Shown here: piece after piece, positions 36,944-58,393 of the stretch | Layout of the letters: each line of letters begins with the position of its first letter | How positions within the stretch are numbered: position 1 is the stretch's first letter | Origin: Desulfatitalea sp. BRH_c12 | GTDB lineage: Bacteria; Desulfobacterota; Desulfobacteria; Desulfobacterales; Desulfosarcinaceae | DNA length: 64,000 nucleotides | NCBI GenBank assembly: GCA_000961655.1 | Contig: LADR01000023.1 | Coordinates: 186,001 to 250,000 of the forward strand | Direction: 5' to 3' | Notes under the pieces: generated by a model | What the model was told of the DNA's origin: nothing | Seen by the model: only the letters and a program-made list of their open reading frames with translations | Databases searched by the model: none | Position numbers and translations under genes: made by a program

Positions 36944-37112
36944 ATCCTCATATCGGGTCAATCCAATTATGAAAACTTTTACATAAGTGATATGAAAATG
37001 GATTTAAATTTACATAACTTCATGATCCATTTTCAATGCACTGGTTAATCAATTTCTTTCCGTTAAGGCCTATCTATAAGTAAAAACAACACAAATTAAA
37101 TTTCTTCTCTGG

Positions 37113-37128
37113 TGGCATCTATATTGCT
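37113..37128 (+). promoter_or_regulatory. sigma-54 promoter of the small PEP-CTERM-like gene
   Basis: TGGCAT, five bases, then TTGCT: the -24 and -12 elements with exact GG-N10-GC spacing and only one -24 base away from TGGCAC. Transcription would start near 37139, about 37 bases before the ATG at 37176. Confidence 0.75.
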
Positions 37129-37175
37129 TTAAAGGTTGTCGGTTACACAATGTATGCGAATAGAGAGAGGAAATG

Positions 37176-37370
37176 ATGCATAAATTCATACGCTACTTGA
37201 TACCTGCAATTGGAACAGTGTCGGTATTATTGTTTTGTGTGAGCGCTACGGCAAGTTTTGCTGAGGCGCGCACCCTGGTTGGGTACTCTTTTTCCGAACC
37301 ATTCAACATGCTCTTGATTGGTTTCGGCTTGATTGGCGCCGCTAGCTTTTTGAAAAGAAAATCGATATAA
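37176..37370 (+). CDS. very small secreted protein with PEP-CTERM-like C-terminus
   Basis: Only 64 residues. A Sec signal peptide (basic MHKFIRY, hydrophobic core, then ATASFAEA) is followed by about 12 residues. Then comes a tail with the tripartite PEP-CTERM layout: SEP, a hydrophobic stretch LLIGFGLIGAASF, and a basic KRK end. PEP-CTERM proteins are cut by an exosortase in the inner membrane. If both cleavages occur, the mature product would be a peptide of only about 10-15 residues. A sigma-54 promoter lies upstream and a polysaccharide locus of the exosortase-A type follows. GAGAGG lies five bases before the second of two adjacent ATGs. Function unknown; a matrix- or signal-related role is inference. 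Confidence 0.7.
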   Translation: MHKFIRYLIPAIGTVSVLLFCVSATASFAEARTLVGYSFSEPFNMLLIGFGLIGAASFLKRKSI

Positions 37371-37954: not shown

Positions 37955-38326
37955 ATGTGTCCGGCACCCAAACTGCTTATTATTGATGATACAGAGGAGG
38001 TCCTGTCGGCTCTCTGTAAATATTTCAAGCAAAAAGGGTATGATGTCATTTCCGCTTCCAATGGATTGGATGGTCTGAAAATGATCGAGGCTGAAAAGGA
38101 TGATCTGGATATCATCATCACTGACTTAGTCCTACCCAATATCAGCGGTGTGGCCGTCATCTCGATCGTCAAGAACAAATACCCGCAGCTGCCGGTGATC
38201 GCGATCACCGGATGGGGTGAACATCCTGAAGCATTGGCAAAAGAGGCCAAGGCAGATCTTGTGATGGAAAAACCTTTTAAACTGCCGGAGCTTGAAAAGG
38301 CCGCAAGGGATCTTCTTGTCAGATAA
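37955..38326 (+). CDS. stand-alone response-regulator receiver domain (split from the next gene)
   Basis: A 123-residue CheY-like domain with the acidic pair in LLIIDDTEE, the phosphorylation Asp in IIITDLVLPN (about residue 55), the Thr in AITGWGEHP and the Lys in MEKPFKL. All active-site residues are present. CAGGAG precedes the ATG. It stops with TAA at 38324, and the next gene starts in the same frame after only one more codon. Domain order and sequence therefore match an NtrC/PrsR-type regulator cut in two. A sensor kinase is not in the window. Confidence 0.9.
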   Translation: MCPAPKLLIIDDTEEVLSALCKYFKQKGYDVISASNGLDGLKMIEAEKDDLDIIITDLVLPNISGVAVISIVKNKYPQLPVIAITGWGEHPEALAKEAKADLVMEKPFKLPELEKAARDLLVR

Positions 38327-38329
38327 ATT

Positions 38330-39385
38330 ATGGCTGCTATGGGACCACCTATTATAGGCGTCAGCGACAATATCCGACGCATCAAAGAGCTTGTCGAGCA
38401 TGTCGCCCATACTGGCTTCAATACCGTCATTTTTGGTGAGAGCGGTGTGGGCAAGGAAGTTATTGCCCAAAATCTCTACCAGCGTTCTCCGCGAGTGGGC
38501 AAACCCTTCATAAAAATCAATTGTGCAGCGCTGCCGGAAGGGCTATTGGAAAGCGAACTCTTCGGGTACGAAAGAGGAGCGTTTACCGGGGCCGAGCAAA
38601 AGCGGAGAGGCAAATTTCAACTCGCCCATGGCGGCGTGCTACTGCTTGACGAAATCGGCGACATGTCTCTGGTGCTGCAAGCCAAACTGCTGCATGTACT
38701 GCAAAGCGGCGAGTTTGCCCCATTGGGTTCGGAAAAAGACGTTAAAACGGATACATGGGTTCTTGCGGCCACAAATCATGATCTGAAACAGGATATCAGT
38801 GAGGGCAAGTTCAGGGAGGATTTGTACTATCGCCTGAATATCATAAAGATTTATGTCAGTCCGCTACGGGAACGCCCCGAGGATATCGTGCCGCTCATTG
38901 AATATTATCTTGCGGAATATTCAACCCAACTCGGCGGAACGGATATCATCAGACCCACACAAGCCGTCATCGAAAAATTGACAACTTACCATTGGCCCGG
39001 CAATGTGCGTGAACTGCAAAATGTCCTTAAACGCATGCTCGTGTTGGGCGAATGCGAAAAGATCGCTGATGAATTATTTGAAAGCACCGGTAAGCAGCAG
39101 GCGATGCGCTCGGCGGCCTCCTCCGAAAACAGCGCTGGCGCCATTCATTCCCTGCTTGATCTCAACGGCAAGGAATTGTCCGGCAATAACTCATTTTCCT
39201 TGAAAGAAGCCAAGAAAAAAGCGGTCGATAAAGTCGAAAAAGAAATCATTTCCTACGTCCTGAAGAAAACGGACTGGAATCGCAGCAAAGCCTCTCGAAT
39301 TTTAAAAGTCAGTTACAAAACACTTCTGAACAAGATCACCGAACTGAATATAAGTCCTCCCGGACACGGTGATTTCCAGCAGTAA
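38330..39385 (+). CDS. sigma-54-dependent activator (AAA+ and Fis-type HTH), PrsR-like, receiver supplied by the preceding gene
   Basis: A 351-residue bacterial enhancer-binding protein. It has Walker A GESGVGKE (36-43), an intact GAFTGA loop (83-88) that contacts sigma-54, Walker B LLLDE (104-108), the arginine-finger region FREDLYYRLN and a C-terminal Fis-type helix-turn-helix (WNRSKASRILKVSYKTLLNK). There is no N-terminal sensor domain of its own. It closely resembles the PEP-CTERM-associated regulator PrsR, which drives exopolysaccharide and PEP-CTERM genes from sigma-54 promoters. It is in frame with the receiver gene, with only TAA-ATT between. No clear ribosome site precedes the ATG, suggesting translational coupling or readthrough. 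The likely targets are the GG-N10-GC promoters in this region. Confidence 0.9.
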   Translation: MAAMGPPIIGVSDNIRRIKELVEHVAHTGFNTVIFGESGVGKEVIAQNLYQRSPRVGKPFIKINCAALPEGLLESELFGYERGAFTGAEQKRRGKFQLAHGGVLLLDEIGDMSLVLQAKLLHVLQSGEFAPLGSEKDVKTDTWVLAATNHDLKQDISEGKFREDLYYRLNIIKIYVSPLRERPEDIVPLIEYYLAEYSTQLGGTDIIRPTQAVIEKLTTYHWPGNVRELQNVLKRMLVLGECEKIADELFESTGKQQAMRSAASSENSAGAIHSLLDLNGKELSGNNSFSLKEAKKKAVDKVEKEIISYVLKKTDWNRSKASRILKVSYKTLLNKITELNISPPGHGDFQQ

Positions 39386-39736: not shown

Positions 39737-39937
39737 GTGATCGACTTATCGGAAAGGCTATTGGGCGTGAACGTGAATTGTCCCGATAACGGCGGTCGCC
39801 GAAAAGACTCCGATAGGCGTCAATTCACATACACCTTCCACATACCGGAAAGAAGGAGTGGCGTTGACAGGCGCACAGGAAAAGACAGGCGTGAATCCAT
39901 CCGCAAAGAAGATAATAACTTGGTTCTGACACTTTGA
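39737..39937 (+). CDS. small hydrophilic protein with Arg/Asp repeats
   Basis: A 66-residue protein with repeated GGRRKDSDRRQ, PERRSGVDRR and GKDRRES units, a pattern seen in many short uncharacterised proteins of sulfate reducers and other proteobacteria. It starts at GTG with AAAAGGA upstream. No signal peptide or membrane segment. It lies between two NtrC-family genes and behind a possible sigma-54 promoter. The repeats could bind nucleic acid, nucleotide or polyanion; no function can be assigned. Confidence 0.65.
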   Translation: MIDLSERLLGVNVNCPDNGGRRKDSDRRQFTYTFHIPERRSGVDRRTGKDRRESIRKEDNNLVLTL

Positions 39938-40417
39938 ATTACTTCATGCGTGATATCCTTGCATGTTCCGATGCCATTTCCGGGTTCCTGACCTCAGTTT
40001 CCGCTTCCGAAAATGAAAATAACTTTTACATTTTGGAGCTTCCCAATCCCACTGATGAATCGTTTCCCCCGCACCAACAAATGACACCAGGGTCGGGGCG
40101 CTGCTGCGTAATTACAAAGTGGTAAAATATTTCATATATAGGCAAACTGTTTCCGTTTTAAATGCTGCATTTTAAGTTTTATTGATCGTAACATTTGCCT
40201 CTAATCATATAAGGTTCTTATTTTTATACATTTTTGATATTTCAAAAACCCTTAGTGATAGAACGAAAATGTAGGCATGTTCCTTGCTGTAGTAGGGCTG
40301 AATGCATCAAGATGTCAAAAGCCATCGTGCCAGGGCATCATCGATACGGCTCCGGCGGATACACCCTCAGCAAGCACTTTTTGGAACAGAAGCAGGCTAA
40401 TCAAATAAGTTGAACGA
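39938..40417. other. intergenic region upstream of the degenerate activator
   Basis: About 480 bases, AT-rich. It has a good sigma-54 promoter (40273-40288) and a leader of about 115 bases. A 63-codon frame at 39934-40125 begins at TTG over the previous stop but has no supporting features. Confidence 0.55.
40273..40288 (+). promoter_or_regulatory. sigma-54 promoter of the degenerate activator / polysaccharide operon
   Basis: AGGCAT, five bases, then TTGCT, with exact GG-N10-GC spacing; it differs from the 37113 site only by the first base and the spacer. Transcription would start near 40299, about 119 bases before the ATG at 40418. Confidence 0.6.
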
Positions 40418-41815
40418 ATGGTCGAGATAACCCAAAACAGGCCGATCATCGTTTTTGCCAAGTCCTCCGGTGAAAGGGATTATCTGCGCAATATTTTGGC
40501 CGCGAGTGGTTGGCGGATTTTGTGCTTCGAAAACGAGACCACCTGCTATGACAATTTGGCTTCAATCGAGCCGGAAGCCATTGTATTGGGGACTGATTCC
40601 CGGGCTGTAGCGTGGCGGTTTATATTTTCCTTAGACGCTTTCGCAAGTGATGCGCAAGTGATCATCCGGTCGAATGTTTTGAATGGATCGACGTTCAGCG
40701 CATTCCACCTTGTAAGGCGCAAGATCATTTGTATGGATTTGCAAACTGAATTGAAAGATATCCAGTTTATAATTGAAACTGGTCGTTATCGAAGTGATCG
40801 GTACAATCAGTCCGAAACTGGATCGCTGGTGGGAGAATCGGTTGCAATTAAAAACATACAAGCAATGTTGCCTAATTTGACGCAGACCCTGGACCCGGTC
40901 CTGATCATCGGGCAACCCGGAACAGGCAAAGAATTGCTGGCGCGCATCATCGGCCGGCATGCAAAACACGGATCTCTTATTATTAAGATAGATTGTGAAG
41001 CGCTCCGAATGACAAGCATCGATGAAGAATGGCACACGTCATCGCGCGATTACAACAAAAGCAGCTTGGTGCAGCCGGGTGGCTTGACGTACCCGAGGCG
41101 GGCAACTATTCTATTGCATAAAATCGATCAATTGGATTTAAAGTCACAATCCGAAATGTTGCTTCTGCTGGAGAAAGGCACTCATTATTTTCCACCGTCT
41201 TTTCTCATTGATGACACACATAGCCGGGTGATTGCGACCTCAGAGCGCGATCTGGAAGATATGGTTCGATGCAATGGTTTCAGGAAGGACCTATACTACC
41301 GATTGAACGTCATACCGTTATATATGCCGCTGCTATCCGAAAGAAAAGAGGATCTACCATTATTGACGGATTACTTTTCCATTGGGGAGTGCGTTAGAAT
41401 GAAGCGAAGTTTTCTGATCGCTTCCGATCAGATCAAAAACAGAGCGTGTGATTATCATTGGCCCGGCAACATGGAAGAGCTAAAGAGTGCTGTTCGTCGA
41501 TATGTTCTGTCGGGAGATGAGCGTCAACTTCTCGCACACACGGGTTTTAAATCGGAAAGCATGTCAAATAAACACCTTTGCAATGCATTTGATAATGAAA
41601 TACTTCCCGATGCCTCGGAAATCCGAAACTATTGGGCTGTTACCGGCAATGGATCGTTGAAATCCATTTGCAATAAATTTGTTTGCCGCACTGAAAAGAA
41701 GTTGATGGAAACAGCGTTGCAAGCGACGAATTGGAATAGAAAGAAGGCTGCGGCGCTGCTCAATATCAGTTATAAATCGATGTTGAACAAAATGAAAATG
41801 TATCAGATCGTATAA
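40418..41815 (+). CDS. degenerate NtrC-family protein (pseudo-receiver, AAA+ without GAFTGA or Walker B acids, Fis-type HTH)
   Basis: A 465-residue protein with the layout of a sigma-54 activator but key residues lost. The N-terminal receiver-like domain (about 8-120) has IVLGTDSR where the phosphorylation site should be and no acidic pair. The AAA+ domain keeps Walker A GQPGTGKE (165-172) and the arginine-finger region FRKDLYYRLN (288-297). The GAFTGA loop is missing: the segment after IDCEAL reads quite differently. Walker B is ILLHKI (231-236), with His-Lys replacing Asp-Glu. The Fis-type helix-turn-helix (WNRKKAAALLNISYKSMLNK) is intact and resembles that of the regulator at 38330. It probably binds DNA and perhaps ATP but should not remodel sigma-54 holoenzyme. 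A role as anti-activator, co-regulator or sigma-54-independent regulator is inference. It precedes the chain-length gene by 38 bases. Confidence 0.8.
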   Translation: MVEITQNRPIIVFAKSSGERDYLRNILAASGWRILCFENETTCYDNLASIEPEAIVLGTDSRAVAWRFIFSLDAFASDAQVIIRSNVLNGSTFSAFHLVRRKIICMDLQTELKDIQFIIETGRYRSDRYNQSETGSLVGESVAIKNIQAMLPNLTQTLDPVLIIGQPGTGKELLARIIGRHAKHGSLIIKIDCEALRMTSIDEEWHTSSRDYNKSSLVQPGGLTYPRRATILLHKIDQLDLKSQSEMLLLLEKGTHYFPPSFLIDDTHSRVIATSERDLEDMVRCNGFRKDLYYRLNVIPLYMPLLSERKEDLPLLTDYFSIGECVRMKRSFLIASDQIKNRACDYHWPGNMEELKSAVRRYVLSGDERQLLAHTGFKSESMSNKHLCNAFDNEILPDASEIRNYWAVTGNGSLKSICNKFVCRTEKKLMETALQATNWNRKKAAALLNISYKSMLNKMKMYQIV

Positions 41816-41853: not shown

Positions 41854-43410
41854 ATGGCCGATACTTCTTTCAAAATAACTCCTGAGCTCGCTATCGATAT
41901 TATCCGCAGAAGGCGCTGGTTCTTGTTGGTGCCCCTGTGCGCGGCGCTAATCGTTGGGATCTATCTGGCGATTACACTTCCCAGGGTCTACGAGGCAAAG
42001 ACGTTGATTCTGATTGAAAGCCAGCGAGTCCCCCAGAATTATGTTCAATCGATCGTCACCGAAGATACTGCGCAACGCATCAATACGATATCCCAGCAAA
42101 TTATGAGTAGGACCAATCTGGAGAAAGTAATTCATGAATTCGGGCTGAATTCCAATGCCGAACAAAAACCGGCGTATCTCGAAGATATCGTCGGAAATCT
42201 TCGTGAGCGCATTTCCGTAGAGGTTTTCAAAGGGGGAAGAGAAGCCAATGCGTTTACGGTTTCTTTCAAAGACAAAGACCCTCAACGTGTGATGCGCATC
42301 GCTAACCGGCTTGCTGCCTATTTTATCGATGAGAATCTCAAAAATCGGGAATCGCAAGCCATCGGGACCAGCGCCTTTCTAGAGGCCGAACTTGAAACGA
42401 TGCGTGTGCGCCTGGAGCAACATGAAGAAAGTCTCAAAAATTACCGCAAAGCAAACATGGGTGAACTGCCCGGGCAGCTTGAAACCAACCTGAGAATTCT
42501 GGAACGCTTGCAGCAGGATCTGGTAAGCAGGCAGCAAGTTCTACGAGATGCCAAAATCAGACTCTCGGACCTGAATAGTCAAGCTACATCGCGAGAGCCT
42601 ACGGTTGTCGTATTGAATGGCGATCGGCGGCGCGACGATGGCGCCCCTTCGTTGGAACAGCTTCGGTCACAGCTTGAATCGATGCAGGCACGCTATACTG
42701 AAAAACATCCTGACATTCAGGCCATTAAGAAACAAATCGCTGAACTCGATGCAAGATCCGATGAGTCCCCGAACGGTGGGGCCAAAGTGCCTATCCGCAT
42801 ACCGCTGGAACTGCGATTAAGGATTGCGGATGCTCAGCGTGAAATCCAGGTGACTGAATCAGAGGTGGATAATCTCAGGGCGCAAATAGCGGAATATCAG
42901 AAAAAGGTCGAGAATATACCGAAACGAGAGCAGGAACTCCTGGGGCTTAACAGGGATTATGAAAATATCAAGACTACCTATGAATCCCTGCTGAATCGCA
43001 AATTGGAAGCCGACATCGCGGTGAATATGGAGCGCAAGCAAAAAGGCGAACAATTCAGGATCCTCGATCAGGCCCGGGTCCCTGAACGCCCTACTGAACC
43101 AGATATGCGCAAATTGTTCTTGCTTTCAGTCGCAATTGGTTTGGGTATCGGCGCAGGATTGGCACTGCTGCTGGAATTTGCCCGGCCAGTTTTTAGAAAA
43201 CCGGATGAGGTCGAGGAACAATGTGGATTGCCGGTCCTTGCGTCGATCCCGAGATTGCTCCTGCCTAAGCAGATGCTGTTGATCAAAATAAACAATCAAT
43301 TGAGTATTGCGTTCTCTGTGATTGTGTTCGGGTTGCTCGGAGTACTGGCGCTGATGACCGTGAAGGGGTCGGAATTCGCGGTTGACCTCTTAAAAGGGTT
43401 GATGGGCTAA
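41854..43410 (+). CDS. polysaccharide chain-length determinant (Wzz/GNVR family, exosortase-A locus type)
   Basis: A 518-residue inner-membrane co-polymerase. The Wzz domain follows a membrane segment at about residues 25-45. Long periplasmic coiled coils run from about 185 to 380. A GNVR-type region (LLNRKLEADIAVNMERKQKG, then FRILDQARVPERP) leads into a second membrane segment near 420-440, and a third hydrophobic stretch lies near the C-terminus. It lacks a kinase domain; the separate tyrosine kinase follows after 50 bases. This split pair is the usual layout in exosortase-A loci. GAGGA precedes the ATG. Confidence 0.9.
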   Translation: MADTSFKITPELAIDIIRRRRWFLLVPLCAALIVGIYLAITLPRVYEAKTLILIESQRVPQNYVQSIVTEDTAQRINTISQQIMSRTNLEKVIHEFGLNSNAEQKPAYLEDIVGNLRERISVEVFKGGREANAFTVSFKDKDPQRVMRIANRLAAYFIDENLKNRESQAIGTSAFLEAELETMRVRLEQHEESLKNYRKANMGELPGQLETNLRILERLQQDLVSRQQVLRDAKIRLSDLNSQATSREPTVVVLNGDRRRDDGAPSLEQLRSQLESMQARYTEKHPDIQAIKKQIAELDARSDESPNGGAKVPIRIPLELRLRIADAQREIQVTESEVDNLRAQIAEYQKKVENIPKREQELLGLNRDYENIKTTYESLLNRKLEADIAVNMERKQKGEQFRILDQARVPERPTEPDMRKLFLLSVAIGLGIGAGLALLLEFARPVFRKPDEVEEQCGLPVLASIPRLLLPKQMLLIKINNQLSIAFSVIVFGLLGVLALMTVKGSEFAVDLLKGLMG

Positions 43411-43459
43411 GATATGCGATTAGCCTTTTCTTTCATACTTTTAAAAAGCAGGTGAGTCG

Positions 43460-44290
43460 ATGGGAAAAATTTTCGATGCCCTTGAAAAATCAAACACACA
43501 GGCAGCTAAATCTGTGCCTTTGCCGCACGTTCGAACCGACATCGTGAATGGCAAGGGGGCCGACAGAATCGTGCCGATTTCCAATTCCAATAAACTTACA
43601 TCGGAGCATAAACTCGATGTGAACCTGATTACCTATCATGCGCCGCAATCGGTCGAAGCCGAACTGTTCAAAGTGTTGCGCACCAATCTGCTTTTTCCAC
43701 CGAAAGGGCAACCCCCTCGGAAGATCCTGGTGACCAGCCCCTTGCCCAGTGATGGGAAATCGTTCATTAGTTCCAATCTTGCCATCAGCATTGCCTTGGG
43801 TATCGAGGAATATGTACTGCTGGTCGATTGCGATGTGCGCAGACCAACCATTCATTCCTATTTTGGTTTCGGAAAGGTGACAGGACTGAGCGAACATCTC
43901 TCGATGGGCATAGACCTTTCGAAAACATTGCTCAAAAGTCCCATACCCAAGTTGACAATATTGCCTGCGGGCCATCCCCCTGGCAACCCAACCGAATTGT
44001 TGACTTCTAAAAGAATGAAAACGCTTTTAGAGGAAGTGGCCAATCGGTATGATGACCGCTACATTCTTATCGACTCGCCGCCGCCTTCCATGGCCGCCGA
44101 AACGAATGCCATGATCAACATCGTCGATGGCGTCATCCTTGTCGTAAAGGCCGGTGTTACACCCAAAAACGCCGTTAACGAAACGATCGAGCAGATCGGC
44201 AAGGAGAAGTTATTGGGCGTTGTTCTGAATTATGCAGACCAATCAGTGAAAAAATACTATGGCTACGGAAGATCTTATTATCACGGATAG
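43460..44290 (+). CDS. bacterial tyrosine kinase (CpsD/CapB type, exosortase-A locus type)
   Basis: A 276-residue cytoplasmic BY-kinase. The start MGKIFDALEKS is typical of the exosortase-associated subfamily. It has Walker A SPLPSDGKS (93-101), Walker A' LVDCDVRRP (121-129) and Walker B ILIDSPPP. A tyrosine-rich tail (KKYYGYGRSYYHG) supplies the autophosphorylation cluster. It works with the preceding chain-length protein to control polymer length and export through phosphorylation cycles. Confidence 0.92.
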   Translation: MGKIFDALEKSNTQAAKSVPLPHVRTDIVNGKGADRIVPISNSNKLTSEHKLDVNLITYHAPQSVEAELFKVLRTNLLFPPKGQPPRKILVTSPLPSDGKSFISSNLAISIALGIEEYVLLVDCDVRRPTIHSYFGFGKVTGLSEHLSMGIDLSKTLLKSPIPKLTILPAGHPPGNPTELLTSKRMKTLLEEVANRYDDRYILIDSPPPSMAAETNAMINIVDGVILVVKAGVTPKNAVNETIEQIGKEKLLGVVLNYADQSVKKYYGYGRSYYHG

Positions 44291-44338
44291 GTATCCAAAA
44301 GGGCAGGGGCGAACGCAAACCAAACTGCTGGAATAATT

Positions 44339-45730
44339 ATGCTAAGACTCTTCAAACAGTATTATCCCATAAGGAATGCGCTCTTTGTATTAGGAGAGGG
44401 TTGCATTATTTTTCTTTCCGTGATTGCTGCCTGCTGGATAATTTTGGGTGAAAAGATTCTGCAAGCTGAAATCTCATTGTTCATGAAAGCCCTTCTGATT
44501 ACTTTTTCGTGCCAGCTATGCCTATATTACAATGACCTTTATGACCTGAAAATTACAAGCACTTTTTCTGAGTTGGGGATTCGTTTGCTGCAGGCACTAG
44601 GCGCCGCCGCAATCATTCTTGCCATTTTATATTTTTTATTTCCGAACGTGATTATCAGTGAAGGTATTTTTCTTGTCAGTACCGTCATTGTCATTTTGTT
44701 TGTAGTATCCTGGCGCGTCGCTTACACTCAGGTTTTGAATAAAGGGTTGTTTAATCAGCGCATCATTATTCTCGGATCAAGTGAAACCGCAAAGGAAATC
44801 GCCAGGCAAATTCAGGAAACAAAGGATTGCGGATACGAGATCGCCGCTGCAATCAGTAAAGATGCATGGCATGATGTCTCATGCTCTGAAAATTTCGGCG
44901 TGATATGTCTAAACTCCTACGAAAATATTTGCGAACTGGCAACCCAAATGAAAGTTGAGAGGATCGTCGTTGCTTTGAAAGAAAAGCGGGGTGACTTCCC
45001 GATTGAAGAGCTTCTGAAATGCCGCGTTAACGGCATCGATATCATCGAGGGTAACAGTTTTTACGAAATGCTTACGGGAAAGCTTATCGTTGAACAAATT
45101 AACCCGGGCTGGCTGATCTTCGCGCAAGGTTTCCAAAAGAGCAAGTCACAAAGATTCGTCAAACGAACGATCGATTTAATTCTCTCCATTACAATGTTGA
45201 TATTGTTGATGCCGTTGCTTGTCGTTATTGCCATTATCATCAAACTGGATTCAAAGGGACCGATCATCTTCTCGCAGGAAAGGGTCGGCGAAAAACATAA
45301 ACCTTACATGGTGCACAAATTTCGTTCAATGCGCTGCGATGCCGAAAAAGATACCGGACCGGTTTGGGCCCAGGCGAATGATGACCGCATTACCCGCATC
45401 GGGCATTTTATGCGCAAGTGGCGCATCGATGAAATACCCCAACTCTGGAATGTCTTGAAAGGTGAGATGAGCTTTGTCGGACCTCGCCCTGAAAGGGAGT
45501 ATTTCGTAAAAGAATTGACCAAGACCATTCCTTACTATGGCGAACGATTTTCCGTCAAACCCGGCGTGACCGGTTGGGCGCAGGTTTGTTACGGTTATGG
45601 CGCATCGGTCAGGGATGCCATCGAAAAACTCAATTATGACCTGTTTTATATAAAAAATATGTCTATATTGATGGACATCATGATTTATGCACGGACCATA
45701 AAGACAGTGCTCTTCGGGAAGGGTAGATAA
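44339..45730 (+). CDS. initiating sugar-phosphate transferase (polyprenyl phosphoglycosyltransferase)
   Basis: A 463-residue membrane enzyme that puts the first sugar phosphate on undecaprenyl phosphate. It has four to five N-terminal membrane segments, a Rossmann-like CoA-binding region ([16 protein letters not shown]) and a C-terminal phosphoglycosyltransferase domain with [35 protein letters not shown] and FVGPRPERE. It matches the type found in exosortase-A loci (TIGR03013-like). The sugar is not decidable from sequence. Confidence 0.92.
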
Positions 45731-45997
45731 AATGAAGTAAATAAAGTAAAATGTAAAGACCGTTGTGCTCCTTTTTCTTATAAAATCCTTCTCGTGGCTG
45801 GTACATGGCGCCGGCAAGCATAATTCTTACAGGCCGTTTCAGTGGCGGCAGTGAAACGACTACACTTATGTAATCGACCAAGCGGAGCTATAGGGTCGAA
45901 TCTACCCCTCACTTGCCATGCGGATAATCTTGGCAGTCATCTATAAAGCATTTAAGTCACACGTGCCGCATGCGATAATATAGATCAGGATTTGATT

Positions 45998-47020
45998 ATG
46001 CATCTTAATTACCAAACCGCCCTCGTTACCGGCGCTGCCGGTTTCATCGGTTATCATCTTTGTAAACGCCTGTTATCCGAAGGGCGGCATGTTATCGGAA
46101 TCGATAACCTCAATGACTATTATGATGTTGAACTGAAAAATGCCCGTCTGCGCCAGTTGACCTCTGATCCGAACTTCGATTTTCATAAAATCGATTTGGT
46201 CGATTTGGAAAAGTTGAACGAGGTATTTGCCAAGTCTTCCATCGATGTGGTCGTCAATCTTGCGGCTCAGGCCGGCGTACGTTACTCACTCGAAAACCCG
46301 CATGCGTACGTAAATGCTAATATTGTCGGCTTTGTCAACATTCTCGAATGTTGCCGGCATAGCCATGTAAAACATCTCGTGTTTGCATCGTCCAGCTCGG
46401 TTTATGGCGCCAACACGAACATGCCTTTCTCCGTTCACCACAATGTGGATCACCCGGTTTCGCTTTATGCCGCTTCAAAAAAGGCGAACGAATTGATGGC
46501 GCATACATACAGCCACCTTTTTGATCTGCCCAGCACTGGATTGCGTTTCTTTACAGTCTACGGTCCATGGGGACGTCCCGATATGGCTTTGTTCCTTTTT
46601 ACCAAAGCCATTTTGGAGAACAAGCCCATACAAGTTTTCAATCACGGCCGGATGCAACGTGACTTTACCTATATCGATGATATCGTGGAAGGGGTCGTGC
46701 GCGTCATGGTCAACACTCCTGAACCCAATCCGGCTTGGAGTGGCAACACACCAGACCCCGGCACCTCATACAAAAGATACAAAATTTACAACATCGGCAA
46801 CAACAGCCCGGTCCAGCTTTCTGATTTCATAGTCGAAATAGAAAAAGCCCTCGGGAAAACAGCAAAAAAACAATACCTGGATATTCAACCGGGAGATGTT
46901 CCGGCAACCTATGCCGACATTGAGGATTTGATGAATGATGTGGGGTTTAAGCCCGCTACGCCGTTGTCCGAAGGCATCAAGAACTTTGTCGAATGGTACC
47001 GACATTATTATCACGTGTAA
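45998..47020 (+). CDS. UDP-glucuronate 4-epimerase-like NAD-dependent epimerase
   Basis: An extended SDR of 340 residues with GAAGFIG, the marker [30 protein letters not shown], the catalytic YAASKK and [12 protein letters not shown]. The NDYYDV-type marker and overall pattern match enzymes converting UDP-glucuronate to UDP-galacturonate. A UDP-glucose dehydrogenase gene lies 750 bases downstream and would supply the substrate. The ATG at 45998 has AGGA upstream and is preferred to the TTG two codons earlier. Confidence 0.9.
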
Positions 47021-47053
47021 ACTCTACCTACAAATTTTCTCAGGAGCAGATCT

Positions 47054-47632
47054 ATGAAAAAAGTCATTTTTTCAACCCTCGTAATACTTTTAACGATTAG
47101 CACTTATACTATCTGCGCTCACGCTCAGGAAGCCAAATCGCCGAAGCAAGAGTATCGGATTGGCGCAGGCGATATCCTTGAAATCGTTACCTGGAAAGAG
47201 CCTGACTTTTCCAGGCAAGAAGTATTGGTAAGATTGGACGGAAAAATTTCCTTTCCGCTTCTGGACGATCTTCAGGCTGCCGGGAAAACAACAACCGAAC
47301 TGAAAAATAATGTCGAAGCAGGCATCAAGCAATATGTTTCCACGCCGAACGTCACAGTAACTATACGCAATGCAGCCAGTCAACGATTTTATGTTTTGGG
47401 CGAAGTCATGCGTACCGGTGAATATCCGCTTCTGAAGGATCTCAGTGTCCTCCAGGCGTTTGCTTTGGCCGGAGGATTCACGGAATGGGCATCCAAGAAG
47501 GAAATTATCTTGTTCCGGCGCGAAGGCGGTAAGGAAACCGTCATCCAGATCAATTACAAGGACATTCTCAAGGACAAGGATTTCAGGCAAAATGTTAAAA
47601 TCAAACCGGACGATACCATCATCGTCCCTTGA
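47054..47632 (+). CDS. polysaccharide export protein (Wza/SLBB family)
   Basis: A 192-residue periplasmic or outer-membrane export protein. A Sec signal peptide ends ICAHA before QEAKS. The polysaccharide-export domain has YRIGAGDILEI and FPLLDDLQAAGKT. One SLBB domain follows (RFYVLGEVMRTGEYPLL). It has no lipobox Cys and is about half the length of Wza, so it probably needs the beta-barrel protein at 49274 or another partner to cross the outer membrane. AGGAG lies eight bases before the ATG. Confidence 0.92.
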   Translation: MKKVIFSTLVILLTISTYTICAHAQEAKSPKQEYRIGAGDILEIVTWKEPDFSRQEVLVRLDGKISFPLLDDLQAAGKTTTELKNNVEAGIKQYVSTPNVTVTIRNAASQRFYVLGEVMRTGEYPLLKDLSVLQAFALAGGFTEWASKKEIILFRREGGKETVIQINYKDILKDKDFRQNVKIKPDDTIIVP

Positions 47633-47767
47633 AATTAATCATGCTATTTGATAGCAATATATCAATTTGTGAGCTTTGAAGCACGGCATAATGCGGTTTA
47701 TTGGGGACGGTTTGCCATATCTTTGTGACAGTTCACCACAACCGGAAAAAAGCAAGGATCATGATCT

Positions 47768-49108
47768 ATGAATGTTTGTATCGTCGGAACCGGTTATGTA
47801 GGACTTGTGGCTGCTGCCAGTCTGGCTGAAATGGGAAACAACGTCCATTGCGTGGATGTCAACCCTACTATCGTCGAGCAGCTCAACAATGGCAATATCC
47901 ACATCTATGAGCCCGGACTGGAACCTATTGTAAAAAAGAACTTCGAAGAAGGACGGCTCAAATTCATCACCAGCCTCTCTGAAGGTATGGAAAACGCGTT
48001 GTTTGTGTTCAATTGTGTAGGGACACCTTCCAAAATCAATGGGGACTGCGATCTGTCCTATATTGAAACAGTGGCCCATGAAATCGGGCAGAATATCAAA
48101 GACTATAAAATAGTCGTCAATAAATCGACTGTGCCTGTCGGAACTGCCGACCGCGTTCGGGATATCATCAAAAGCGAAATTGAAAAGCGGGGGCTCAACA
48201 TCGAGTTTGACGTTGTGTCCAATCCGGAATTCCTGAAAGAGGGCGATGCCGTCAACGATTTTATGAAACCCGACCGGGTGATCGTCGGTACCGATAATGT
48301 GCGCACCGCTAAACTGCTGGAAACCCTCTATGCCCCGTTCGCCCGCAGCCGTGACAAGATGATTATCATGGGCATCCGCAGTGCTGAAATGACAAAATAC
48401 GCGGCCAATTGTATGCTGGCCACCAAAATCTCCTTCATGAATGAAATCGCCAACATCTGTGAAAAAGTCGGCGCCGATGTAAAAGACGTCCGTGTGGGGA
48501 TTGGCTCAGACCGGCGCATCGGCTATCATTTCATTTATCCCGGCGTTGGCTACGGCGGTTCCTGCTTTCCTAAAGATGTGAAGGCTTTGATCAATACAGC
48601 CAAGGAAAATGGCTATGATGCCGAACTTGTATCAGCGGTGGATTCGGTAAATAACCGTCAGAAACATGTGCTTGCCAGGAAAATTATAGATTACTTCAAT
48701 CAGCAGGGCGGAGTGAAAAACAAAACCCTCGCTCTCTGGGGCATTTCCTTCAAAGCAAACACGGATGACATTCGCGAGTCCGCTGCTATGGAAACCATAC
48801 GGATATTGACTGAAGCCGGGATGAAGGTGTGTGCTTTCGATCCGGAAGCCGGTCCGAACGCTACCAAGGCCTTGTCGGGCAATCCTTTCGTTAGGATTAT
48901 GAACGATCAGTACGGCCCAGTTGAAGGTGCCGACGCACTTGCGATTTTGACCGACTGGAACCAATTCCGCAACCCCGACTTCACGCGAATAAAAAAATTG
49001 CTCAAAGCCCCTATCGTTTTCGATGGTCGCAACTTGTATTCCTCCAGCTTGCTTGCAAGTCAGGGATTCGCCTATTTCGGCATCGGACGCCCTGTAAATA
49101 AAAATTGA
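47768..49108 (+). CDS. ugd: UDP-glucose 6-dehydrogenase
   Basis: Oxidises UDP-glucose to UDP-glucuronate with two NAD+. The 446-residue product has the NAD site GTGYVGLVAA, NKSTVPVGTADRV, and the catalytic Cys at about 266 in GYGGSCFPKD, followed by the C-terminal UDP-binding domain. With the epimerase at 45998 it supplies acidic sugars for the polymer. UDP-ManNAc dehydrogenase activity is a less likely alternative. Confidence 0.92.
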   Translation: MNVCIVGTGYVGLVAAASLAEMGNNVHCVDVNPTIVEQLNNGNIHIYEPGLEPIVKKNFEEGRLKFITSLSEGMENALFVFNCVGTPSKINGDCDLSYIETVAHEIGQNIKDYKIVVNKSTVPVGTADRVRDIIKSEIEKRGLNIEFDVVSNPEFLKEGDAVNDFMKPDRVIVGTDNVRTAKLLETLYAPFARSRDKMIIMGIRSAEMTKYAANCMLATKISFMNEIANICEKVGADVKDVRVGIGSDRRIGYHFIYPGVGYGGSCFPKDVKALINTAKENGYDAELVSAVDSVNNRQKHVLARKIIDYFNQQGGVKNKTLALWGISFKANTDDIRESAAMETIRILTEAGMKVCAFDPEAGPNATKALSGNPFVRIMNDQYGPVEGADALAILTDWNQFRNPDFTRIKKLLKAPIVFDGRNLYSSSLLASQGFAYFGIGRPVNKN

Positions 49109-49142
49109 AAATACCCGCTTTGAAAGCCATTAGGGTCGGTTG

Positions 49143-49167
49143 CGTTCCCATCTTTATGGTGGGAACG
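49143..49167. repeat. GCGTTCCCA palindrome, copy 3
   Basis: CGTTCCCA (49143-49150) and TGGGAACG (49160-49167) form an 8-bp stem 35 bases past the ugd stop, followed by TTTCCCCC. Same core as the hairpins at 7597 and 22058. Confidence 0.6.
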
Positions 49168-49273
49168 TTTCCCCCTCTCGTGTTTGAGTATAAAACATGG
49201 TCCTCGCCACGATCCGACCAATAATGTCCTTCTCAAGCAAACTCGTTCCGGACCTCTCTTAAGAAAGGAAAAG

Positions 49274-50620
49274 GTGTTGAAATTAACCTGGTTCAAAATA
49301 CTGACGATTATCACCTCGATAGGCGTGGTCGTTTCCAATGCCCAGTTCCAAGCAGAGGCCGCCCAAGTTCTTTTCACGCCTGAACTACTGCTCACCGAAG
49401 AGTATTCGGACAACGTTTACCTGACACACGAAAATGAAGAAGATGATTTTATCACTTCAGCAGGATTGAGCCTCACCGCTCAAGTTGTCGGCCGTACCGC
49501 CGGTGTGGAACTGAATTATACCCCTACCTACAATGCTTTTGCCGACAACTCGGATTTGAATTACTGGCGCCATGCCGCCCGACTGCGTGCATGGAACGAT
49601 TTTTCACGCAATACGCGGTTCGAATTCATCAACGACTATTTAGAAAGTGAAGATCCCTTGGACGAGACAGCCGACTTTACACCGGATGATCCGCTTCAGG
49701 GGCCGAGTATCGATCCAGATTACAACCGGCGCGGTCGTGGCCGTTACCGCATCAATGCTGCCGAAGCGAGTCTAACTCATCAATTCGGGGCAAAAGACCG
49801 CATCTATGGCACCTTTCAATACAGTTTTCTTGAAGATGTTGATACTTTCGCTGGCCAACCAGTAGATGATTACACCAACCTGCGCCCCGCATTCGGACTG
49901 GATTACTGGTTTTCACAAAATTGGGGAACGGAAATTGAAGGATTCTATTCGAACCGTGATTATGAGGAAAAGAATGACCGTCAAGAATATACCGGCTATT
50001 TTCGGTTGCTTTATTCGATCCAGCGGAATCTGTCCGCCTTTGCCGAATATCGTCATACCTTCCTTGATTATGATGAAGAAACGGATGATGATTACCATAT
50101 CTATTTCCCTACAGTTGGTATTCGGTATCAGTTTCAAGAAACAGCGCATGTTCTTTTAGGCGCTGGATATTTCATCCAGGATGTCGATAATCAAGAAGAC
50201 AATGAAGAAGGTTGGGGGGTTAATGCGGAAATTTATAAACGGTGGGCTTTTCGATCCAGCTACATCGATGTCGCCGGAAGCGGTGGTTATGATATAGATG
50301 ACACCGGCACCGCAGACCTGGGTTTTGCCCTGATCTATTTGGGCAGGTTGGGGGTAGGGTATAACTTTACTTCACGTTTTTCAGCTGAAGCCAATGCTGC
50401 CTATATATACAAGAACTATCCGAATCGAGAGCCGGAACGCACCGATAACATTATCGACGCAGGTGCCGGTATCAGGTACCAAGCTCTAACCTGGATGTTT
50501 TTGGGTCTGAATTACCGATACAGGGATTTTCAATCCGATATAATCACCCAGGAATATACTGAAAACAGAGTGATATTCAGTATTACCATGCGCCCCGCCA
50601 CAGCTTACCGCTGGAACTGA
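49274..50620 (+). CDS. outer-membrane beta-barrel protein of the polysaccharide locus
   Basis: About 448 residues. A signal peptide (LKLTWFKILTIITSIGVVV, ending AEAAQ) is followed by short amphipathic strands with alternating aromatic residues and acidic loops (for example YSDNVYLTHENEEDD), as expected for a barrel of 16 or more strands. The text LTEEYSDNVYLT is typical of the PEP-CTERM-locus outer-membrane family (TIGR03016-like). It may be the channel missing from the short export protein, which is inference. The start is GTG 49274 or TTG 49277 behind AAAGGAA; the frame is open further upstream to 49184 without a site. Confidence 0.8.
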   Translation: MLKLTWFKILTIITSIGVVVSNAQFQAEAAQVLFTPELLLTEEYSDNVYLTHENEEDDFITSAGLSLTAQVVGRTAGVELNYTPTYNAFADNSDLNYWRHAARLRAWNDFSRNTRFEFINDYLESEDPLDETADFTPDDPLQGPSIDPDYNRRGRGRYRINAAEASLTHQFGAKDRIYGTFQYSFLEDVDTFAGQPVDDYTNLRPAFGLDYWFSQNWGTEIEGFYSNRDYEEKNDRQEYTGYFRLLYSIQRNLSAFAEYRHTFLDYDEETDDDYHIYFPTVGIRYQFQETAHVLLGAGYFIQDVDNQEDNEEGWGVNAEIYKRWAFRSSYIDVAGSGGYDIDDTGTADLGFALIYLGRLGVGYNFTSRFSAEANAAYIYKNYPNREPERTDNIIDAGAGIRYQALTWMFLGLNYRYRDFQSDIITQEYTENRVIFSITMRPATAYRWN

Positions 50621-50684
50621 TCCCTGCGCTATTTTTATGCTGCGTTCGTTGGAGGCAAGTATATAAAATCAACATGATGGATTT

Positions 50685-51554
50685 ATGACACCAAGCGCCC
50701 CTGTTATTCTCATCACCATTGATGTCGAGGAGTGGTTTCAGGTCGAAAACCTGCGTCCATGGTTCCCTCCAGATCAGTGGGATTTTCAAAGCTCACGTGT
50801 CGAGTCTGCAACAAAAAGGCTTCTCGACCTGTTCGATTCATTTGATAACAGCGTCAGGGTGACTTTTTTTGTATTGGGCTGGGTGGCACAGCGGCATCCC
50901 AACCTGGTATCGTACATTAAAAAGCGCGGGCATGAGATAGCTTCTCATGGATACAACCATCTGCTAAATTACCAGATGAAGCGCGAAGTATTGAAAGAGG
51001 ATCTCAGTAGAAGCAAACAACTCCTCGAAGATATCACGGGCGAACCCGTTGCAGGCTATCGTGCACCCTGCTTTTCAATCGATAAGGATATTTTGAAAGC
51101 TATTCAGGATGCCGGCTACCACTATGATTCCAGCTACAATTCGTTTGCCGGAAACGGCCGCTACGGCACCATCGATACCTCGGGTATGTACCAGCGTGGT
51201 ATGGCTTTGCAGATTTCTTCAAAGTTCATCGAACTTCCGATCAGCAATATCATTACCATGGGGCAAACCATACCGTGGGGAGGAGGGGGATATTTCAGAT
51301 TGATCCCGCCTGTCTTCTTCAGAAGTGGTATTCGGCATATTTTAAATAGAGAGAAAGCCTATATGCTCTATCTGCACCCCTGGGAGTTAGATCCTGCGCA
51401 ACCTAAAGTGCCGCACATTCGCAACCTGCCGCGGTTTCGTCACTACCTGAATATTGCTAAAACTCACAAACGATTGCGCGAACTGATATTAACTTTCCGG
51501 TACTGCAGATTCTTGACCTGCAGTCAGTATATACATTCGCTGCGGACCTGTTGA
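50685..51554 (+). CDS. polysaccharide deacetylase, exosortase-A locus type
   Basis: A 289-residue NodB-type carbohydrate esterase. It has TIDVEEWFQ with the catalytic and metal Asp, GHEIASHGYNH with the two metal His residues, and GYRAPCFSI. The C-terminal LYLHPWELDPAQP belongs to the extension typical of the PEP-CTERM-locus subfamily (TIGR03006-like). It would remove N-acetyl groups from the polymer or its lipid-linked precursor. No signal peptide is visible, so it probably acts in the cytoplasm. Confidence 0.92.
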   Translation: MTPSAPVILITIDVEEWFQVENLRPWFPPDQWDFQSSRVESATKRLLDLFDSFDNSVRVTFFVLGWVAQRHPNLVSYIKKRGHEIASHGYNHLLNYQMKREVLKEDLSRSKQLLEDITGEPVAGYRAPCFSIDKDILKAIQDAGYHYDSSYNSFAGNGRYGTIDTSGMYQRGMALQISSKFIELPISNIITMGQTIPWGGGGYFRLIPPVFFRSGIRHILNREKAYMLYLHPWELDPAQPKVPHIRNLPRFRHYLNIAKTHKRLRELILTFRYCRFLTCSQYIHSLRTC

Positions 51555-58042: not shown

Positions 58043-58393
58043 TCGACAGTATCTGCCTACGGAGAGAACGAATCCCGTGCCCTGGATGATGGGACGTGCA
58101 AACCTACCCCCCAAGTTATAACATCGACTTCCCATTTGTGGTAAATTAGTACATACTAACAGTATGGGGCGTTCCCTGTTCTGCATATATCCTCCTGCAT
58201 AGGTATATATAACTATCCGGATAATAGGATAAAAATACTAAATGACCGTGTGGCATGGAAGGTGCTTTAAGGTAAAGTACCCTTGCTGTTGAATTGATAG
58301 ACTCTTTTGCAATCGCTCTATCAGGAATCAACCAAGCGGAGCCATGCACTTGCTCAAAATAGAACCTTCTTACGCGGCAATATTTCGACACAT
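58043..58393. other. intergenic region upstream of the acyl ligase
   Basis: About 351 AT-rich bases with a sigma-54-like site at 58251-58266. The frame of the next gene is open back to a TTG at 58307, but that stretch has no family similarity. Confidence 0.5.
58251..58266 (+). promoter_or_regulatory. possible sigma-54 promoter of the acyl ligase
   Basis: TGGCAT, five bases, then GTGCT: exact GG-N10-GC spacing and the same -24 hexamer as at 37113. Transcription would start near 58277, about 117 bases before the ATG at 58394. Confidence 0.55.

Follow-up and report, generated by a model that had tools for sequence, protein, structure and literature searches.

A degenerate paralogue of an enhancer-binding protein at the head of an exopolysaccharide operon and its possible role in tempering an intact twin

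What can an enhancer-binding protein (EBP) still do once the residues with which it remodels sigma54 have been lost? The question is raised by an open frame of 465 aa at positions 40418–41815 of the 64-kb window, the whole stretch of 64,000 nucleotides that was analysed; this and the other parts of the locus described below lie on its forward strand. The frame encodes an NtrC-type regulator, hereafter the pseudo-EBP, that lacks its sigma54-remodelling residues. An earlier note had placed it at the head of polysaccharide genes behind a sigma-54-like promoter, and this description holds: a -24/-12 site lies at 40273 and the next gene begins 38 bp downstream. The genes that follow (41854–51554) are XrtA/PEP-CTERM exopolysaccharide genes for a chain length determinant, a tyrosine kinase, an EpsB2 glycosyltransferase, an export protein, an outer-membrane protein and a deacetylase, together with UGE and UGD. 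They match TIGR03007, TIGR03018, TIGR03013, TIGR03027, TIGR03016 and TIGR03006 of NCBIfam, where the matches to TIGR03018, TIGR03027 and TIGR03016 score below the curated cut-offs. Upstream lies EBP1 (38330–39385), an intact AAA+ EBP with both GAFTGA and the Walker B DE and without a receiver of its own, preceded by a stand-alone receiver (37955–38326; PF00072, 76.6 bits) in whose alignment the DD and the phospho-Asp are present. Together these two genes (37955–39385) form a split response regulator; in the window they share a reading frame and a single stop separates them. The split is found across the order, and in some relatives the genes overlap.

We compared the pseudo-EBP with active EBPs, element by element. 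It has the three-domain architecture of NtrC (receiver, AAA+ and Fis-type helix-turn-helix, or HTH), as judged by Pfam, hhalign and AlphaFold with Foldseek. Its match to the Sigma54_activat family (PF00158) scores 78.7 bits versus 221 for EBP1, the weakest of the 61 such matches in the genome when generic AAA matches are left aside, and Pfam also detects the AAA lid and HTH_8. Walker A (GQPGTGKE, 40910–40933) is kept, as is the arginine-finger region (FRKDLYYRLN, within GFRKDLYYRLN, 41279–41308), and the Fis-type HTH (41690–41803; PF02954, 45.4 bits) carries an ISYKSMLNK recognition helix. The GAFTGA motif is absent from its expected place in the L1 region (41021–41089), which reads HTSSRDYNKSSL and is disordered in the AlphaFold model, and Walker B reads ILLHKI (41108–41125), with HK in place of DE. 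Consequently, the earlier claim that every sigma-54-activation element is degraded applies to the GAFTGA loop, Walker B and the receiver residues, but it does not extend to Walker A and the two finger arginines, both of which an active EBP also needs and which survive here.

The N-terminal domain (40418–40792) is a pseudo-receiver with a conserved signature of its own. Pfam detected no receiver in it; in hhalign, 124 columns of the family profile of this region could be aligned to stand-alone receivers (E = 1e-6, probability 91), and the AlphaFold model, whose alignment was made of generic EBP sequences and was thin under this domain, shows five receiver-like units in (beta-alpha)5 order. Global superpositions of the model gave an rmsd of 16–20, which indicates a flexible placement of the domains. 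The acidic pair is replaced (IVFAKS, with no DD) and glycine occupies the phospho-Asp position (AIVLGTDS), so the protein lacks both features that define NtrC-family response regulators. Conserved residues in the family are F37 and N46 (31/31 each) and R20, R24, C43, P52 and S85 (87–94%), a pattern that suggests a site for a partner or a ligand. The stretch from strand 2 to helix 2 follows the signature CF(E/D)xExxCx(D/E)N(L/I), which differs from phospho-receivers. Inspection by eye of the linker that precedes the AAA+ domain found no conserved Arg, and on this ground we discounted a c-di-GMP site of the FleQ type.

These losses extend across the order. A family-profile scan of the genome contigs returned generic EBPs only; the pseudo-EBP family came from a search of whole genomes of the order, in which about 48 neighbourhoods were read and 33 further members were sampled from many families (n = 34 in total). 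Members share a position: EBP1 is their neighbour, in most cases accompanied by the stand-alone receiver, and the XrtA/PEP-CTERM exopolysaccharide operon follows directly, while a few lie apart from EBP1 or at the head of other polysaccharide genes. The Walker A glycine is present in 34/34 and its lysine in 32/34, with Arg in the other two (94–100%); the finger arginines are found in 31/34 and 32/34 (91–94%). The SYK[S] recognition helix recurs in 33–34 of the 34 members and the HTH residues are 97–100% conserved, so the earlier proposal that the DNA-binding domain is kept appears sound for the family as a whole. An intact GAFTGA is found in one member and a Walker B DE in three, never both in the same protein; at the separate Walker B positions Glu remains in 10/34 and Asp in 15/34, the sensor I Asn is essentially never present and the sensor II Arg is present in 11/34. 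The exact ILLHKI, whose conservation in homologues the earlier note had proposed to examine, does not recur: the loss itself is conserved, and the replacement residues vary by lineage. Judged from these counts, selection has kept the residues needed to bind nucleotide and DNA and to contact other subunits, and it has released those for hydrolysis and sigma54 contact, a pattern that fits an ATP-binding, subunit-contacting, DNA-binding and non-remodelling protein.

A tree built without the loop and Walker B columns places all pseudo-EBPs in one clade (support 100/99), separate from EBP1 (98/95). Its nearest outgroup consists of intact second EBPs (EBP2; L188–L199) from families f41, f64 and f24, which likewise head an XrtA operon, have a pseudo-receiver already without its acidic pair and phospho-Asp and in some cases share the same promoter and palindrome. 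Unlike the pseudo-EBPs, they carry GAFTGA in 11/12 and DE in 12/12 and are presumably still activators. Inside the clade one member (L200) retains GAFTGA with a Walker B of EK; in the outgroup there is one gene (L199) from which GAFTGA is gone and in which DE is retained. Together these two patterns indicate that the loop and Walker B were lost separately and more than once, although the GAFTGA of L200 may reflect gene conversion. Since an intact EBP2 occupies the same spot in distant families, the residues were lost long ago and to some extent in parallel. The earlier note had reasoned that close relatives with an intact GAFTGA and DE would point to recent decay or a sequencing artefact; when sought, GAFTGA or DE at the locus was found in distant families only and in none of the members from the same genus or family, and in view of the many independent orthologues we reject both possibilities.

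We next consider the DNA in front of these genes. The pseudo-EBP and the exopolysaccharide genes are preceded by a sigma54 -24/-12 promoter, AGGCATGTTCCTTGCT (40273–40288), and about 30 of the 34 members have one outstanding -24/-12 site at the equivalent place, at most 500 bp upstream, with a -12 element that is mostly TTGA or TTGT in the Desulfosarcina-type members. Sigma54-like sites in the window as a whole show no excess over chance (35 versus 40 expected), and single sites were judged solely by conservation and a linked palindrome. Motif discovery upstream of the sigma54 sites found such a palindrome, TRKGnAAnnnnTTnCMYA (log-likelihood 146, versus 25–28 for shuffled sequences), in most cases 177–187 bp ahead of the promoter and frequently present as tandem copies at a spacing of 20–22 bp. 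At this operon the predicted activator site is GTGGTAAAATATTTCATA (40119–40136; score 16.4), followed 20 bp on by a weaker tandem copy, TAGGCAAACTGTTTCCGT (40139–40156; score 9.4). A second predicted site, TATGAAAACTTTTACATA (36968–36985), scores 17.8 with the motif derived from pseudo-EBP promoters, in whose training set it was not included; it lies 145 bp before a sigma54-like promoter, TGGCATCTATATTGCT (37113–37128), recognized by its composite pattern with the palindrome and belonging to a small gene at 37173.

The palindromic sites lie 145–180 bp upstream of the sigma54 sites. Two palindromes score at least 16 in the 64-kb window, versus 0.15 expected, and in the 6.0-Mb genome the composite of sigma54 site and palindrome at a fixed distance is present at two places and no more, both at this locus, with none in the reversed control. 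Further matches outside the training set were found at two promoters in G006 and one in G001, both of the same genus, and at the promoters of three intact EBP2 genes (L191, L196 and L197). A candidate third sigma54 site (58251–58266, upstream of the gene at 58307) was dropped for its poor -12 element and lack of a linked palindrome.

Would both proteins recognize this palindrome? After itself, the best match to the pseudo-EBP HTH in its own genome is EBP1 (E = 3e-8), and a tree sets EBP1, EBP2 and the pseudo-EBPs apart from 19 other EBPs of the genome with a support of 100/99; within the tree, the SYK helix is confined to these three groups. The SYK recognition helix occurs in the pseudo-EBP and EBP1 only among the 21 regulators of the genome that were compared, and in 0/19 of the others. 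The two helices are similar and not identical (SYKSMLNK versus SYKTLLNK), so the site preferences of the two proteins could differ. The earlier suggestion that the pseudo-EBP uses the same sites as the intact regulator at 38330 therefore gains from a recognition helix common to both and a palindrome at both locus promoters, which make shared sites plausible, while competition and the sign of any feedback are a matter of inference.

We propose, with roughly even confidence, that the pseudo-EBP is a selectively maintained, DNA- and ATP-binding, non-remodelling paralogue that tempers EBP1 as a governor of its output. EBP1, together with its separate receiver, would bind the palindromic upstream sites and remodel sigma54-RNA polymerase at two promoters, those of the small gene at 37173 and of the exopolysaccharide operon. 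The pseudo-EBP, made as the first gene from that same operon promoter, would bind the same palindromes and ATP and assemble on the DNA, and it would be unable to hydrolyse ATP normally or to grip sigma54. It would then either occupy the sites or join EBP1 rings as a dead subunit, and the operon would be tempered as the protein accumulates, with the pseudo-receiver tuning the effect through contact with a protein or ligand and without phosphorylation. The retained Walker A and finger arginines suggest ATP-dependent oligomerization, alone or possibly with EBP1 in mixed rings, in addition to competition for sites. In PspF, the E108Q substitution, which alters the Walker B Glu, yields hydrolysis-defective and constitutive hexamers, and protein remodelling requires that adjacent subunits both engage sigma54 (PMC4132715). 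By analogy with PspF, loop-less and hydrolysis-dead subunits on a common enhancer should temper EBP1.

The sign of the effect is not given by sequence alone, and a DNA-bound, ATP-locked partner could also aid the loading of EBP1. The pseudo-EBP might accordingly act as a helper, raising the activity or DNA loading of the receiver-less EBP1 within mixed rings or complexes on tandem sites. The finger arginines, which function across the interface between subunits, survive in 91–94% of members; tandem palindromes 20–22 bp apart are common; and within the same-family set the pseudo-EBP is found only where EBP1 is present, while EBP1 is also found alone. DNA remodelling by PspF rings also survives when alternating subunits are defective in hydrolysis (PMC4132715), and two EBPs at one promoter have a precedent in LuxO and SypG (PMC10162802). 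However, loop-less subunits would disturb the engagement of sigma54 by adjacent subunits that PspF requires (PMC4132715), and genome G029 carries an intact pseudo-EBP together with an EBP1 interrupted by a DDE transposase (PF13701; L158:10524-13311). We consider a helper unlikely.

A second possibility, to which we give similarly little credence, is a switch of the VpsR type, in which the pseudo-EBP would act independently of sigma54 at sigma70 promoters, at this or other loci, and its pseudo-receiver or ATP pocket would serve as the sensor of a small molecule. GAFTGA-less relatives that act at sigma70 promoters are known, namely VpsR of Vibrio cholerae and the NtrC proteins of Rhodobacter capsulatus and Caulobacter (PMC10274813; PMC9303241). 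VpsR is also a degenerate EBP with receiver, AAA+ and HTH domains that controls exopolysaccharide genes, and its crystal structure matches the pseudo-EBP model (rank 11). In contrast to the pseudo-EBP family, VpsR keeps its receiver Asp (PMC10274813) and responds to c-di-GMP; it is no specific sequence relative, ranking 23rd among solved structures by family profile. A further difference is the intact paralogue that adjoins the gene here. The NtrC-type proteins of R. capsulatus and Caulobacter likewise keep the phospho-Asp and have not been described as sharing a promoter with an intact twin; for the R. capsulatus protein, ATP binding is required and hydrolysis is not (PMC10274813).

The arrangement of the DNA also speaks against a sigma70 switch. 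A conserved sigma54 promoter stands in front of the gene, with the palindromes 145–180 bp upstream, an enhancer position rather than one beside a -35 element, and the composite of palindrome and sigma54 site occurs at just two promoters of the genome. Moreover, in the same-genus genome G006 (100% complete) the pseudo-EBP has been deleted, while EBP1 and the two exopolysaccharide genes that follow are kept, as are the palindrome and the sigma54 site. That the promoter is kept without the pseudo-EBP is easier to reconcile with a modulator in an accessory role than with an obligate activator. Against the governor model, two same-family genomes that lack the pseudo-EBP (L208 and L209) have neither palindrome nor promoter at that place. 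The G006 locus still holds a remnant directly before the chain-length gene (L204:11080-11133), the HTH end ISYKSMLNKIMIYENI followed by a stop.

Is the family instead slowly disappearing? A duplicate EBP2 made redundant when EBP1 took over could be undergoing loss, its fold and HTH lingering. The branches are long, GAFTGA and Walker B were lost independently with differing replacements, and G006 has deleted the gene. The rate of change was estimated mainly from one pair of members (L156/L157, dS 0.54), as synonymous sites are saturated in most pairs, and gave a dN/dS of 0.225 for the whole pseudo-EBP (N-terminal 0.13, AAA+ 0.26, HTH 0.12) versus 0.03 for EBP1. The family thus evolves several times faster than EBP1, and relaxed constraint explains part of the AAA+ change. 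Against slow decay, the ratio is well below 1, the frame is full-length in almost all of the roughly 33 lineages, which come from many families, Walker A, the finger arginines and the HTH have been selectively retained, and the promoter is conserved along with a new N-terminal signature whose F37 and N46 are invariant (31/31). We regard slow decay as quite improbable. Orthologues across the order, with matching losses at the same locus and a dN/dS of about 0.2, bear out the view of the earlier note that this is not random decay; the test of conservation and purifying selection that it proposed for homologues without GAFTGA points the same way, with 33 of 34 members lacking the intact motif and the ratio for L156/L157. 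The protein belongs with the GAFTGA-less EBPs, which keep the fold and the DNA-binding HTH, have lost the sigma54 loop and are under selection.

It is scarcely credible that an unorthodox loop and nucleotide site still let the pseudo-EBP activate sigma54: the fold is kept and non-consensus loops such as GVATGV in DVUA0100 of D. vulgaris are thought functional (PMC4641369), but most members have lost both the loop that contacts sigma54 and the residues for hydrolysis (Walker B Glu and sensor I Asn), and no alternative motif is conserved.

If the pseudo-EBP does temper EBP1, its history may have included a change of sign. We advance as a tentative idea, somewhat more doubtful than not, that an ancestral activator EBP2, giving positive feedback from the sigma54 promoter of its own regulon, turned into a dead subunit inside the operon that limits its twin, giving negative feedback on exopolysaccharide production, through parallel and order-wide loss of the remodelling residues, with DNA binding, ATP binding and subunit contacts retained. 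Such an inversion, if true, would make the whole family a dominant-negative EBP at sigma54 enhancers, and we know of no described example of this. GAFTGA-less EBPs as such have been described, each an isolated case that had shifted to sigma70 promoters; what appears new here is a vertically inherited, seemingly dead paralogue beside an active twin at the head of the operon, in dozens of lineages and at sigma54 enhancers. A literature search of incomplete coverage found no described inactive, vertically inherited EBP that is paired with an active paralogue and heads their operon. Together with relatives that are intact and a single intermediate of either kind, the family forms a natural series on the uses of an EBP after the loss of sigma54 remodelling, which bears on how dead subunits may govern live rings and on how feedback on biofilm polysaccharides evolves. 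From the locus also come a specific predicted binding site, a regulon of two promoters and, for comparison, a deletion that arose naturally.

Other systems share parts of this arrangement. The EBP PrsR (TIGR02915) governs PEP-CTERM/XrtA genes, whose sigma54 promoters have a motif upstream (PMC1569441), but the genome has its own, separate PrsR (C30:33072, 519 bits against a cut-off of 502.6), and EBP1 and the pseudo-EBP score 280 and 102 bits, both far below that cut-off. LuxO and SypG act as two EBPs on the one sigma54 promoter of qrr1 in Vibrio fischeri (PMC10162802); there both are active, as an OR gate, whereas at this locus one twin is inactive. In Aquincola, the PEP-CTERM gene pepA is under sigma54 control with an upstream site (PMC9850573).

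Two small genes complete the locus. Just downstream of EBP1 lies a putative accessory ORF (39737–39937) for an Arg-rich product (GRRKDSDRRQF...RRSGVDRRTGKDRR) with RRxxxDRR repeats, for which Pfam and NCBIfam gave no matches; an ORF of this kind recurs just 3′ of EBP1 in several relatives (L164, L166, L172, L180 and L184). The gene served by the second promoter (37173–37370) is flanked by aat and the receiver gene and has a sigma54 promoter and a palindrome to itself. By sequence reading, it encodes a mini-PEP-CTERM protein of 65 aa, a signal peptide followed by SEPFNMLLIGFGLIGAASFLKRKSI, with a Pfam PEP-CTERM match of 15.1 bits that is below the cut-off. The gene is conserved in G006 and G008, and homologues adjoin the locus in L162, L167 and L204.
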